The position numbers were made by a program, and so were the translations under genes. This document shows, in pieces, positions 16,358 through 34,902 of a DNA stretch of 64,000 nt. The first letter of the stretch is position 1; every line of letters begins with the position of its first letter. The stretch comes from Acanthosoma haemorrhoidale (taxonomy: Eukaryota; Arthropoda; Insecta; Hemiptera; Acanthosomatidae): positions 70,287,104-70,351,103 of the forward strand of contig OV884014.1 in assembly GCA_930367205.1 (NCBI GenBank), given 5' to 3'. The notes beneath the pieces are model-generated. The model did no database searches, had not been told where the DNA came from, and worked only from the letters and a program-made list of their open reading frames with translations.

Positions 16358-19300
16358 ATGGCCCGGACCAAAAATGCTAACAAGAGGAGAAGGAGGAAGA
16401 GAATTGACGCCGACTCCATGTCTACTAGTAGCGCAAGGAGGGAGGAAGACAGAAAGCACCAGCCGATCACCACTATCTTCAAAGGAGACGAGATACAAGA
16501 AATATCAGCCATCCTTGAAGTCGTAGAGCCGGTAGGTCAATAATATTAAAATTCGGGCCAAAACATGTTTTCCTCCAGCTTACAGTTTGGCAAGTTGAGA
16601 CTCACAACTTTCAAAGGCAACTTCCCCCTGCAAAGTGGTTTAGTCCCGTATGTTAAGAAACGCGCTCTGGTGTCGGTGTCGTACTTCTCAACCCGGGAAG
16701 ACTTGGTTCTTTTGGGAAATTCAACTAGAATTTCACTGAAAAGTACCCACCCCCCCCCCCCAAAAAAAAAAACCACTTGTAAATATCGAACAAAGGGCAT
16801 AATAAAAGCGTAAATCTATAATCCTGAAATAAAATCATAATAAATACCTCACATAATAAACAATGGTACAAAACAACAAGCGTTGTTGCCCTGAACCTTG
16901 GATTAAGCAAATTTTACAGTAGAGGAAATTTATTTATTGTCAATTTATTCGAACTTTTTACAGTCTTAATTAGTTTTTGTATGTTTTATTTGTTGAACTT
17001 TTACTAGAAGTTACTGGATACAATAGTATTGAATCTTAAGTCAGGCTTAAAAATTGTTTTTGTAGGGATTTTCATCACTTGATAAAGCTTGCTTTAATGT
17101 ACCAGAGGTATAAAATTACCACAACTCCGCGTGATTTAACCCCTTGTCTCAATATATAGCATGCCTTACAAATATATCTAGATTTATTTATAGAACGTAA
17201 AAGTTAGTCTTAGTAAAGACTTATTTTATATAGGTATGACTGCGTGGAATAAATGTATTCTCGTTTGACAGGATGACTCTCAGGCACTCCTTGGTGCCGT
17301 CGTTCTTAACAAGTTTGATGTTGTAAAAAAATTATTGAAAGATGGCTTTTCCATAGACAGCTGCAAGGAGGTAAGCAAGCTATTATAAATTATTTGAAGT
17401 AGCTATAAATTATTCCAGTATAAAAATAAGCTATTGTAGCCAGAGAGGGGGGAGGGCTGTAATAGATCCTCCCAAAATTATATAAAAATACAACCTACCT
17501 TCTTGAGGAATGGAAGTCTGGGGGAATGGAAATCCTTCCAATATTCTTCACATCCAATCGTTGCAATCCATAATGAAGCCAATGCTCCTTTCTTTGGAAG
17601 TAATCGTACTCTGGCATTCACTAATCAACCCATAAACAATTAACATATACACTTTGTTCACTCACTTATCTTTGTGTCTAAACATAACAGCCGGAAAAAC
17701 TACTTTCTATACATACTATATAATCATAATAACTTGGAACTTGGAGGAATCGTGATAATTAATTAACAAACAAAATAAAAGCTTGAAGTTCTTATACGTT
17801 ATTAGGTTTCGGTGCATTTTAAATTGCAAGGCACTGTTCCAGCTTTGAAATGTATAGGCTGTACAACAGGGAGTAATTCTAACTTGACTTTGTCTTTAGT
17901 AAATGTTCCTAACTGATCGGAAACATTTTACAATACTTCTGAAAATGTCTGTATTATCACCCTCAGATTTTGGTGTAAATAAATAAGCGTTGAGCAGTCT
18001 CGTTCTCAACAATTTCGAATCCAAGGATTTTAAACATAACTCTACCCAGCAGCGGGGGCCAGTTTGAATATATGACATAAAATGTCACATCCTCAAAATA
18101 TTTACCTTTATATGACATGCTGGTGTGAAAACAGCCTACAGGTATATTTTGTCATGGGTGAAACCACCACGTAAATGTAATATAGAAAATGGTAAAATGT
18201 AGGTCTTCGAGGGGCGAGGGGCTTGGTCGGTGACTAATACAGAGAAGGGTTGCAGACAAGCAATAAACCATTGTTTTAGCCTAAAGTAAAAAATCAGGAC
18301 GCAGGTGCCTGGGACTGAAAGGGCGAGCTATATAATATAACCCTCTATGTCGTGGGAGATTAAAATATGAGTTAAAACTAGGGAAAAAGGCCAAATGGGC
18401 TTAAGATCAAAGTGGTCTCATATATCACTCGAGTCTAAAAACTGTTGCTATGAAGAACTCATCCCTTTAAAGAGATAAGGGCCCACACTCCTAGGTGAGT
18501 GAAAATCGTCCTGAGGTTGGGACAAGGAGTACTAGAAAAGTAGTAGGAAAGAAGAGGAAGCTCCACCTCACTATACTGACGACTTCTTGAGAGGCGACTA
18601 GCTCCCTCTAATGACCCCATGAATAATTCACTACCCTGACTGACTTCTCTGGAGGCTACTTTCTGACAGAACGTGGAGGCAGAGAACACTCTAAGGATGA
18701 TGAGTAGCTGGTAATAGCCATTACCATTCAATTTTAAATATCATCCCATAGATTTAGCTAACTAAATTCAATAGTTAATATCAAATGTGTATCTTTAATT
18801 CTTATCATAAACTGGTTATATATATATTGTTTTATATAATAGGAATATGGTCTGTTTATATTCTCTGTTAGAAGAAAATAGTTGAATCTACCATAAATAT
18901 CCATAATTGTTACTTTGTTCATCTCTCAATCTATAATATTTCTCTTTCTTTTATTAATAGTTCATGGCTCTTCACATATTGTGTTATTTATCTCTCAAGC
19001 ACATTTATTCATGTTAATGTCTTATCACGCCAATAGCTAGAAATAATAAAAGGTAAGATTAGAGTTTTTGTTTATTAATTGAGGATATCTAGTAAATACT
19101 TTTTCATCTATCTGAGACCTACCGATGACTGAAAGAAAGTACTTCCTCAGGATCCCCTCCTCATCAGTCATTCTAGTCAGTTGTTTACAGTAATTCAGTC
19201 ACCAAGGTGGGCCTACCACCTCCTTAGCTCTTGCTCATCTCTTATACTTAGAGGAAGAGGAAGATCTTTAGCTACCCTCAATTAACTTTGGCTCTAATGT

Positions 19301-34300: not shown

Positions 34301-34902
34301 GAACTCATTTTCAGGCATGTATTCAATTGGGATAAAAATAAAAAATGGAAATTTTTACTGCTGTGTGCAGGTGTACCAGCTAAAGGGGTTTCTCTAACAT
34401 TTGTTTTAGAACATTTACACAGTTCCATTGACAAATATGCTCGGGAATGCAATATTGACACCAAATGGGTAAGATTTTTTTTTTTTAGAATTAAAATTTT
34501 TTTATAATGTTGTTTATGACTATTAAATATTTGCTTACAAATTAAATTAGACTAAGGACTTATTTCAAATTTAGTTCACTAACATGGTCCAAATACCAGA
34601 ATTGTTTTTATTATTGCTATTTTACCTGTGTTTTTTTTATGCTTTCATAAACTGTATTCAAACTAATTACATTAACATAACTTTTTTTGTTTAAGGGACG
34701 AATCGCAACAAAGCAGTTGGACCCCAAAATTTTTAAGAGTAAATATCCAGAAACATTGTCAGGACTATTGAATTTACTCAGAGACAATCTTCCTTCTTCA
34801 GCTGGTTGGTTTTTATCAATTTTCCCATCCCTTCCACTCATTTTGTGTCGCCTCTTAGAGAATTCTTCATGGTTTTGCCATCCAGATCTAGCACAATTTT
34901 AA
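16358..34902 (+). CDS. RNase L-like protein: ankyrin repeats, pseudokinase-like domain and KEN-type domain (15 exons)
   Basis: Exons: 16358-16531, 17272-17370, 19804-20019, 20254-20451, 20634-20771, 20854-20910, 22515-22684, 25122-26801, 29634-29803, 29877-30139, 30852-30977, 32174-32260, 32335-32558, 34315-34468, 34696-34902. All introns are GT-AG, every junction keeps phase, and the sum is 3963 bases (1320 residues plus stop). Residues 9-15 are a basic stretch; 59-275 hold about six ankyrin repeats; 351-911 are Lys/Glu/Asn-rich; about 925-1200 form a kinase-like domain (G-H-G-G-S-F-G loop, K975, H1072-G-N, D1092-F-G); 1202-1320 resemble the KEN RNase domain of IRE1 and RNase L. This is the domain order of RNase L, which senses 2-5A through its ankyrin repeats and cuts RNA through its KEN domain. 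The HRD Asp is Asn and the KEN His is not seen, so activity is doubtful. The start and long exon 8 are the least certain parts. Confidence 0.82.
17272..20910 (+). other. Ankyrin-repeat exons of the RNase L-like gene
   Basis: Exons 2-6. Repeat consensus positions are visible: DGITPLMWVIRLKKWEMTEF, NGNTALMIAA, TGNTMLHLVV, RGVTPIMLACSKHQVSIIKT and KGCTACCYAIAY, each followed by a helix and an L/F-V/L-pattern turn. Exon boundaries are all phase 0 and tend to fall between repeats, the usual layout for ankyrin genes. Exon 6 (20854-20910, 19 codons) is tiny and has little ankyrin character; it is accepted because both splice sites are good and the frame is kept. The six repeats compare with about nine in vertebrate RNase L. 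Confidence 0.8.
22830..24170 (+). mobile_element. Decayed Jockey/CR1-like LINE fragment in intron 7
   Basis: Conceptual translation with many stops and shifts gives a non-LTR reverse transcriptase in order: an ADELN...HFLS stretch near 22895, QSGFRPEFSTQSTLTEIIQD near 23326-23385, SGVAQGS near 23589, HYAEDTQIYLS near 23672-23704 (active box YADD changed to YAED), and a DLDRIKAWASLHNLHLN block near 23764-23815. It cannot encode a protein and is a degraded 5'-truncated insertion. Confidence 0.75.
25122..26801 (+). other. Exon 8 of the RNase L-like gene: 560-codon linker rich in Lys, Glu and Asn
   Basis: One uninterrupted 1680-base exon. Its acceptor (TTAAGCAG) and donor (GAG/GTGAGT) both fit phase 2, matching exons 7 and 9. 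Residues 351-435 look globular (LWLQKNYKSLSQYYRKYIQT and following). A basic run near 442-455 follows (PKKKKEKPF...KKK), then acidic disordered sequence. Residues about 590-680 again look helical, with a WSQVVEKWKELCGFLRMKW stretch. It is strongly A-rich, unlike the ankyrin and kinase exons, but no stop occurs in 1.68 kb, which argues that it is translated. Vertebrate RNase L has no such insert between its ankyrin and kinase parts. Confidence 0.75.
26940..28865 (-). mobile_element. RTE-like LINE fragment in intron 8, minus orientation
   Basis: On the minus strand the pieces follow the order of a non-LTR reverse transcriptase: a linker ending KRIKTYYEELYHV (28480-28440), NYRPLPLLSILYKLLSKIIN (about 28120-28065), VGFRKGRSTVDHIYVINQLI (about 28023-27965), then a KAFDSL box, LEFADDVVLIS near 27640-27605 carrying the catalytic FADD, and a C-terminal WKGL...W-x-x-R tail near 26980-27060. 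Several stops and shifts break it. It is antisense to the host gene. Confidence 0.8.
29634..32558 (+). other. Pseudokinase-like domain exons of the RNase L-like gene (exons 9-13)
   Basis: The N-lobe shows VGHGGSFGPVTLAL (glycine loop), HVVKRL with K975 as the ATP-site Lys, and a helix C region. The hinge region reads LATPLCQSNINEH. Exon 11 gives GLHYLHS...IIHGNLKPTNLLVD, where the catalytic HRD is HGN, and SDFGIHE with an intact DFG. Exon 12 is an unusual activation segment rich in Trp. Exon 13 carries SSDVQVLGMLSHYILTGG followed by THPFG and a C-lobe ending KPEERPTTDEIM. The TGGTHPFG block and the KEN domain directly after it point to the IRE1/RNase L branch of kinases rather than ordinary ankyrin-kinase fusions. 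Confidence 0.8.
30330..30640 (-). mobile_element. Small LINE reverse transcriptase fragment in intron 10, minus orientation
   Basis: The minus-strand reading contains GVRQ...LSPALFGLVFRRVLG (about 30610-30545) and further down GLKINASKTKET (about 30465-30425), two conserved RT blocks normally about 60 residues apart. Short and broken; family not assigned. Confidence 0.6.
32742..33637 (+). mobile_element. Gypsy solo LTR, third copy, in intron 13 of the RNase L-like gene
   Basis: It begins TGTAGCGACCGCTAACTACA at 32742 and ends CCCGACA at 33637, 896 bp. Flanks are TCTAC (32737-32741) and CCTAC (33638-33642), a target duplication with one mismatch. It is longer than the other copies partly because of a tandem duplication of about 34 bp near 32796-32866 (ACAAATGTAAATAACATGAA occurs twice). 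No internal retroelement sequence, so a solo LTR, in the same direction as the host gene. Confidence 0.88.
34315..34902 (+). other. KEN-type domain exons of the RNase L-like gene (exons 14-15)
   Basis: The domain begins straight after the kinase C-lobe with HVFNWDKNKKWKFLL, the equivalent of the H-P-x-F-W...K-x-x-F-L entry of KEN domains. Exon 15 gives KSKYPETLSGLLNLLRDNLP, aligned with the Y...S..DLL..IRN catalytic region, and then GWFLSIFPSLPLILCRLLE, aligned with the final YF...FP.L helix. By this alignment the Tyr (1269) and Arg (1281) are kept. The Asp before LL is Gly, the Asn after Arg is Asp, and the loop with the catalytic His is shortened and has no His. The domain is about 119 residues, slightly shorter than usual. 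Confidence 0.7.

Follow-up and report, generated by a model that had tools for sequence, protein, structure and literature searches.

Gene structure

The window analysed here is a stretch of 64,000 nucleotides from contig OV884014.1 of Acanthosoma haemorrhoidale, which is contig C4 in a genome of 866 Mb and 72 contigs. On its plus strand, between positions 16358 and 34902, a single frame of 1352 codons plus stop is formed by 15 exons whose borders are GT/AG and whose phases match. The gene is real and conserved, and its product carries ankyrin repeats, a pseudokinase and a KEN-type domain in the order found in RNase L. This product is probably a catalytically dead scaffold or sensor of RNase L type, rather than an RNA cutter. 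A sequence-only reading made earlier had proposed fifteen phase-matched exons in one frame, which hold, and a length of 1320 residues, which is replaced by the 1352 codons given here. Its proposed domain order is borne out by Pfam for the ankyrin and kinase domains and by profiles and fold comparison for KEN; its pseudokinase is supported by the HGN that replaces HRD in all 34 proteins of the family, and its suggestion of conservation across insects by the 33 relatives described below.

The model was built with tblastn searches of the window using the orthologues of Nezara viridula (P0001), Halyomorpha halys (P0002) and Apolygus lucorum (P0003). The Nezara and Halyomorpha proteins are each 53% identical to a 1293-residue version of the window protein. 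These searches fixed exon 6 and joined the end of exon 7, at 22684, to exon 8, at 25122. Each of exons 3-15 is matched by Nezara P0001, and exon 2 by Apolygus P0003. Exon 1 (16358-16531), which carries the start codon and a basic N-terminal tail, has no tblastn match among the orthologues used, but by eye its product is like the N-terminus of P0003.

Ankyrin repeat 1 is encoded by exon 2 (17272-17370), repeats 2-3 by exon 3 (19804-20019) and repeats 4-5 by exon 4 (20254-20451), all with Pfam as well as tblastn support, and a sixth repeat, degenerate by eye, by exon 5 (20634-20771, tblastn). A helical region begins in exon 6 (21703-21855), which was found only via the orthologues and is 78% identical to Nezara P0001, and continues through exon 7 (22515-22684, tblastn) into exon 8 (25122-26801, tblastn). 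Exon 8 also encodes a long variable linker, with a PPPGF motif near the exon end; the exon holds an open frame of 565 codons, and no intron frame on the same strand goes beyond 92 codons without a stop. The linker ends in exon 9 (29634-29803, Pfam and tblastn), where the glycine loop of the kinase-type domain is found. The kinase N-lobe with its beta-3 lysine (VVK) lies in exon 10 (29877-30139) and the HGN and DFG motifs in exon 11 (30852-30977), both placed by tblastn and alignment. They are followed by the activation-segment region in exon 12 (32174-32260, tblastn) and the C-lobe (HPFG) in exon 13 (32335-32558, tblastn and PDB sequence search). The KEN-type domain is divided between exon 14 (34315-34468), with a conserved Trp, and exon 15 (34696-34902), in which the Arg is kept, the catalytic His is missing and the frame stops; both are supported by tblastn, profile searches and alignment. 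An AATAAA polyadenylation-type signal follows the stop codon at 34994-34999.

In the stink bug models P0001 and P0002 the exon-11 segment with HGNLKP is tandemly doubled, the second copy carrying HSK. A search of the window with this second copy returned exon 11 as the sole match. The doubling possibly represents mutually exclusive exons that were both read into the models.

Distribution of the family

Three protein searches, in which 5 of 17, 6 of 14 and 30 of 32 matches were relatives (overlaps included), brought together 33 relatives of the window protein, one of them from the limpet Lottia gigantea. From their source names, we take the relatives to be mostly beetles, then true bugs and planthoppers, with two cockroaches, a chewing louse and the sawfly Orussus. 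Tribolium castaneum and Periplaneta americana are among the carriers. No Diptera or Lepidoptera are found among the 33 relatives; as the searches were limited to shared words, absence from these orders does not follow. Most named relatives are annotated as uncharacterized or hypothetical, and Holotrichia P0033 as ire1-related. No description of the insect family was found in the literature surveyed by titles and abstract openings, a survey outside which most subscription papers fall, and the available parts of PMC11672174, PMC4061530, PMC13319465, PMC2852836 and PMC4419793 make no mention of an insect RNase L.

The intron between exons 8 and 9 is 2.8 kb long and contains a reverse-transcriptase fragment (RVT_1, 4e-10, 27912-28319, minus strand), as might be expected if two adjacent genes had been joined by mistake. 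However, ankyrin and kinase domains are found in one protein in 27 of the 33 relatives according to precomputed Pfam lists, the models without both being P0030, P0034, P0040, P0048, P0050 and P0051. Two of these 27 look like transcripts: P0004 (1765 aa) is on a contig of at most 5690 bases and P0018 (1354 aa) on one of at most 4200, too short for introns to fit in. A mistaken join is thus very improbable.

Lottia P0053 (hypothetical protein LOTGIDRAFT_235319) aligns with cockroach P0047 over residues 1-443, which include the ankyrin and helical regions (E 3e-22), and again over kinase and KEN (E 1e-34). A profile of the helical region from seven insect rows scores 43.0 over 100 columns on Lottia, against at most 22.9 in 100 shuffles.

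Between the window protein and Nezara, identity is 71% in the kinase-type domain, 65% in the KEN-type domain and 43% in the linker. The KEN-type domain therefore appears to be under constraint, which suggests a scaffold rather than a decaying remnant. The PPPGF motif is found in the linker of five of the 34 proteins: the window protein (residues 923-927), P0001, P0002, P0004 and Lottia. It lies 180-193 residues before HGN in the first four and 480 before it in Lottia. GYF domains of GIGYF proteins bind a PPPGF motif; as it is absent from every beetle row, it is no more than a side lead.

Identity of the C-terminal domain

The Pfam scan, the PDB search and the first protein search were run on the 1293-residue model or its kinase-KEN part; the ankyrin, kinase and C-terminal parts of this model are the same as in the 1352-codon model. 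Pfam recognises two of the three domains named in the sequence-only reading, with Ank_2 at 1e-24 and Pkinase at 3e-28. The third, Ribonuc_2-5A (PF06479), has no match in the window protein, in seven kinase-KEN rows of the family or in six further insect proteins, and in the precomputed Pfam lists it is present in one of the 33 relatives, Lottia, where it matches the C-terminus at 4e-12. On Pfam alone a KEN domain would be rejected. This rejection is overturned by profiles built from the family and by fold comparison, which find KEN proteins, so that a KEN-type fold can be claimed without Pfam membership.

When a kinase-KEN profile of seven family members was compared with PDB, the top 16 matches were IRE1 sequences. 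In 15 of the 16 the aligned part takes in the KEN domain and ends at profile position 371 or 372 out of 387. The best 60 of the 2611 PDB matches of this profile do not include RNase L, nor do the best 60 when the window kinase-KEN part is searched as a sequence. Among those best 60 matches, the kinase part is closest in sequence to IRE1.

A different picture is seen with the KEN domain by itself. With a KEN-only profile of seven sequences, the leading matches are the two full-length sequences of RNase L (E 0.0027 and 0.0089), and with 14 sequences, excluding Lottia, the same two are found at E 3.8e-4 and 4.8e-4. The matches that follow (E 0.4 and 0.59) are to other proteins; no IRE1 appears among the PDB matches up to E 10. 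In a profile-profile comparison, family KEN scores 49.5 against the KEN pieces of IRE1 and RNase L, compared with at most 17.3 in 100 column shuffles. The proposed KEN-type C-terminus is upheld in profile and fold, minus the catalytic His in the window protein.

Fold comparison was carried out with Foldseek on a model of the beetle orthologue P0005. The first 12 matches are RNase L, and the comparison recovers KEN proteins and an IRE1-like kinase-KEN fold. DARPin-armadillo fusions appear at ranks 40, 43 and 50, and from these the helical region receives the weak label 'armadillo-like'. The helical region of the window protein alone has no PDB sequence match up to E 10.

Loss of catalytic residues

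Catalytic residues were compared in an alignment of 29 of the 34 proteins, which leaves out P0020, P0038, P0049, P0051 and P0052 (fragments, cut-off models or an isoform). The position of the HRD Asp is Asn in 29 of 29 rows, whereas active protein kinases carry the Asp. The KEN Trp aligned with W632 of RNase L is kept in 29 of 29. The KEN motif is covered by 28 rows: the Arg is present in 12 of them, the His in three (Tribolium castaneum, Zophobas and Lottia) and the two together in none. In the window protein the position of the catalytic His falls in an alignment gap. Lacking both this His and the kinase catalytic Asp, the window protein is unlikely to have a role in cutting RNA, and both catalytic sites look to have been lost in the family. 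The Rx4-6H motif is described as the active site of HEPN domains, with Arg and His both required in KEN; where the motif is missing, some HEPN domains are probably RNA binders that do not cut (PMC3710099).

Several observations weigh against a fully dead protein of RNase L type. Nucleotide binding is possible, given that 28 of 29 rows retain the beta-3 Lys, and the KEN Arg is still present in the window protein. The KEN motif has a Lys-Asn...His version in Tribolium castaneum P0045 and Zophobas P0042, and in Lottia a Tyr-Asn...His version in which Tyr replaces Arg; as Asn...His is kept in these three, weak or altered activity is conceivable there. In addition, the fold comparison applies to the beetle P0005 and not to the window protein itself. 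The KEN-type domain might thus be an active RNase that cuts with other residues, as its conservation relative to Nezara and the Asn and His kept in the two tenebrionid beetles and Lottia would allow. Given that Arg and His are together in no row, and that the window protein has a gap at the His, we regard this as improbable.

Ligand contacts

The 2-5A pocket of RNase L is described as being made of ankyrin repeats 2 and 4 of one protomer, with ankyrin repeat 9 and the pseudokinase N-lobe added by the other, and has been probed by W60A, K89A and further mutations (PMC5927464). The corresponding contacts were aligned in 22 of the 34 proteins; P0029 was set aside as misaligned, giving 21 readable rows. 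W60 is Ile in the window protein and Trp in three of 21 family rows, and K89 is Lys in none of the 21, the window protein included. Around F126, E131 and R155 the alignment is unsure. As the W60 and K89 contacts are not conserved, binding of 2-5A in the manner of RNase L is unlikely.

Another nucleotide messenger, for example the product of a cGAS-like enzyme, could instead be bound by the ankyrin repeats, making the protein its receptor. The Mab-21 family includes cGAS-like enzymes, and the genome has two matches to this family, at C6:30517606-30518151 and C1:86283544-86283765, which may or may not be cGAS-like. OAS1_C has no match in the genome, a result to be read with the control, which also gave none. 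The binding of 2-5A by the ankyrin repeats of RNase L (PMC5927464) lends this receptor role some appeal; the missing W60 and K89 count against it for 2-5A, and not for every messenger. Overall, we consider such a receptor an unlikely explanation of the family.

Phylogenetic position

A separate IRE1 is encoded by the same genome in two exons on contig C1. It was found by a search with the Ribonuc_2-5A model, by which the window gene is not matched, and its exons carry the catalytic motifs HRD, RNK and HHY. The trees omit near copies (P0002, P0029, P0030, P0033, P0034, P0039, P0042 and P0046) and the five fragments, cut-off models or isoform left out of the catalytic alignment; the long outgroup row P0021 was also dropped from the tree with this IRE1 and from the tree without Lottia.

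The tree that contains the genome's own IRE1 has one clade for the family, Lottia included (99/97), and another for the IRE1s of yeast, human and Acanthosoma haemorrhoidale (100/99). A grouping of the family with the own IRE1 is rejected (p 5.6e-5). Thus the gene is not a recent insect IRE1 duplicate that gained ankyrin repeats, an origin for which the ire1-related source name of Holotrichia P0033 could be cited and which we find hardly tenable.

The deeper position is less clear. The family joins RNase L in the tree with the own IRE1 (84/76, below the starred level) and in an earlier tree with Lottia (91/83, also unstarred), in which the family clade including Lottia has 94/92. In the former, the alternatives of family with IRE1 and of IRE1 with RNase L have p 0.21 each and are not rejected; in the earlier tree family with IRE1 has p 0.14 and is likewise not rejected. 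When Lottia is left out, IRE1 groups with RNase L in the best tree at 55/2, and this tree resolves none of the relations.

The sequence-only reading had left a choice between an ancient RNase L relative and a convergent fusion. The former receives the 84/76 grouping, with the alternatives standing at p 0.21. In a convergent fusion, an old kinase-KEN of IRE1 type would have acquired its ankyrin repeats separately from RNase L. This would fit the unrejected grouping with IRE1, the unresolved tree without Lottia and the kinase part, which is most IRE1-like and for which RNase L is not among the best 60 PDB matches. Against it are the two trees that join the family to RNase L, the KEN-only profile, which up to E 10 picks up RNase L but no IRE1, and the domain order common to the family and RNase L. 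We regard convergence as a possible origin, somewhat doubtful as it stands. Common descent with RNase L is favoured from these sequence comparisons. Tentatively, and at some remove from the data, an ankyrin-kinase-KEN protein may have been present in the ancestor of insects, molluscs and vertebrates, from which vertebrates would have derived the 2-5A-driven RNase L, and insects a pseudo-RNase that senses another signal, holding RNA or recruiting partners.

Comparison with known systems

With RNase L the family shares ankyrin repeats, pseudokinase and KEN in one protein, and RNase L comes first in both the Foldseek comparison and the KEN-only profile search. It differs in having about six ankyrin repeats in the window protein as opposed to nine, together with an additional helical region and several hundred residues of linker. 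RNase L has HQD at the position of HGN, and in the family the KEN Arg...His pair is incomplete and the aligned 2-5A contacts are not conserved. The kinase-KEN fold is also that of IRE1, as judged from the profile search and from the fold of P0005, but the window protein has ankyrin repeats in its N-terminal half and both catalytic centres are degenerate. No IRE1 lumenal domain is found by Pfam, in which ankyrin is the only N-terminal match above cut-off; transmembrane prediction was not run. The family resembles non-catalytic HEPN domains, MtlR for example, in having a HEPN-type fold without the Rx4-6H motif (PMC3710099), whereas its own domain is part of one protein with a kinase-type domain and ankyrin repeats.

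Lottia P0053 has the same domains, HGN and helical region as the window protein, with the differences that its KEN is found by Pfam and that it keeps Asn and His, with Tyr for Arg. A 2018 survey of four sponges and eight further lower animals (three cnidarians, a springtail, an oyster, Lottia, Lingula and an acorn worm) reported OAS without RNase L, and concluded that the pathway does not exist in those animals (PMC6307210). At odds with this, an RNase L homologue is reported in the dsRNA response of Nematostella (PMC8476169). Judged from its sequence, P0053 is RNase L-type by architecture, without a complete active site, unlike the result given in the available part of PMC6307210.

For the dead scaffold or sensor proposed above, a partner or ligand would be bound by the ankyrin and helical half, and the pseudokinase-KEN half would form dimers that hold RNA or protein partners instead of cutting RNA. 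Analogy with RNase L, with IRE1 and with non-catalytic HEPN domains leads us to expect that the protein dimerises, binds RNA or a partner and has lost both enzyme activities.

RNase L is usually regarded as a late addition to antiviral immunity. If descent is common, its architecture would predate the divergence of insects, molluscs and vertebrates. As a natural pseudo-RNase, the family would make the scaffold role of the RNase L fold separable from cutting. The presence of the gene in Tribolium castaneum and Periplaneta americana makes study in laboratory insects possible.

Other features of the window

The stretch 22000-24000, mostly the intron between exons 7 and 8, has a strong GC skew of -0.33 on the plus strand and is probably a decayed element, at a guess. 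Two plus-strand open frames at 2332-2682 and 15590-16075, the second ending just upstream of exon 1, look like pieces of mariner-type transposases, with no Pfam transposase match. Two single-frame, secreted-looking proteins are encoded on the plus strand at 6358-7089 and 12214-12939, both with a weak likeness to Group 7 allergen (E 0.003 and 0.004, below the Pfam cut-off).

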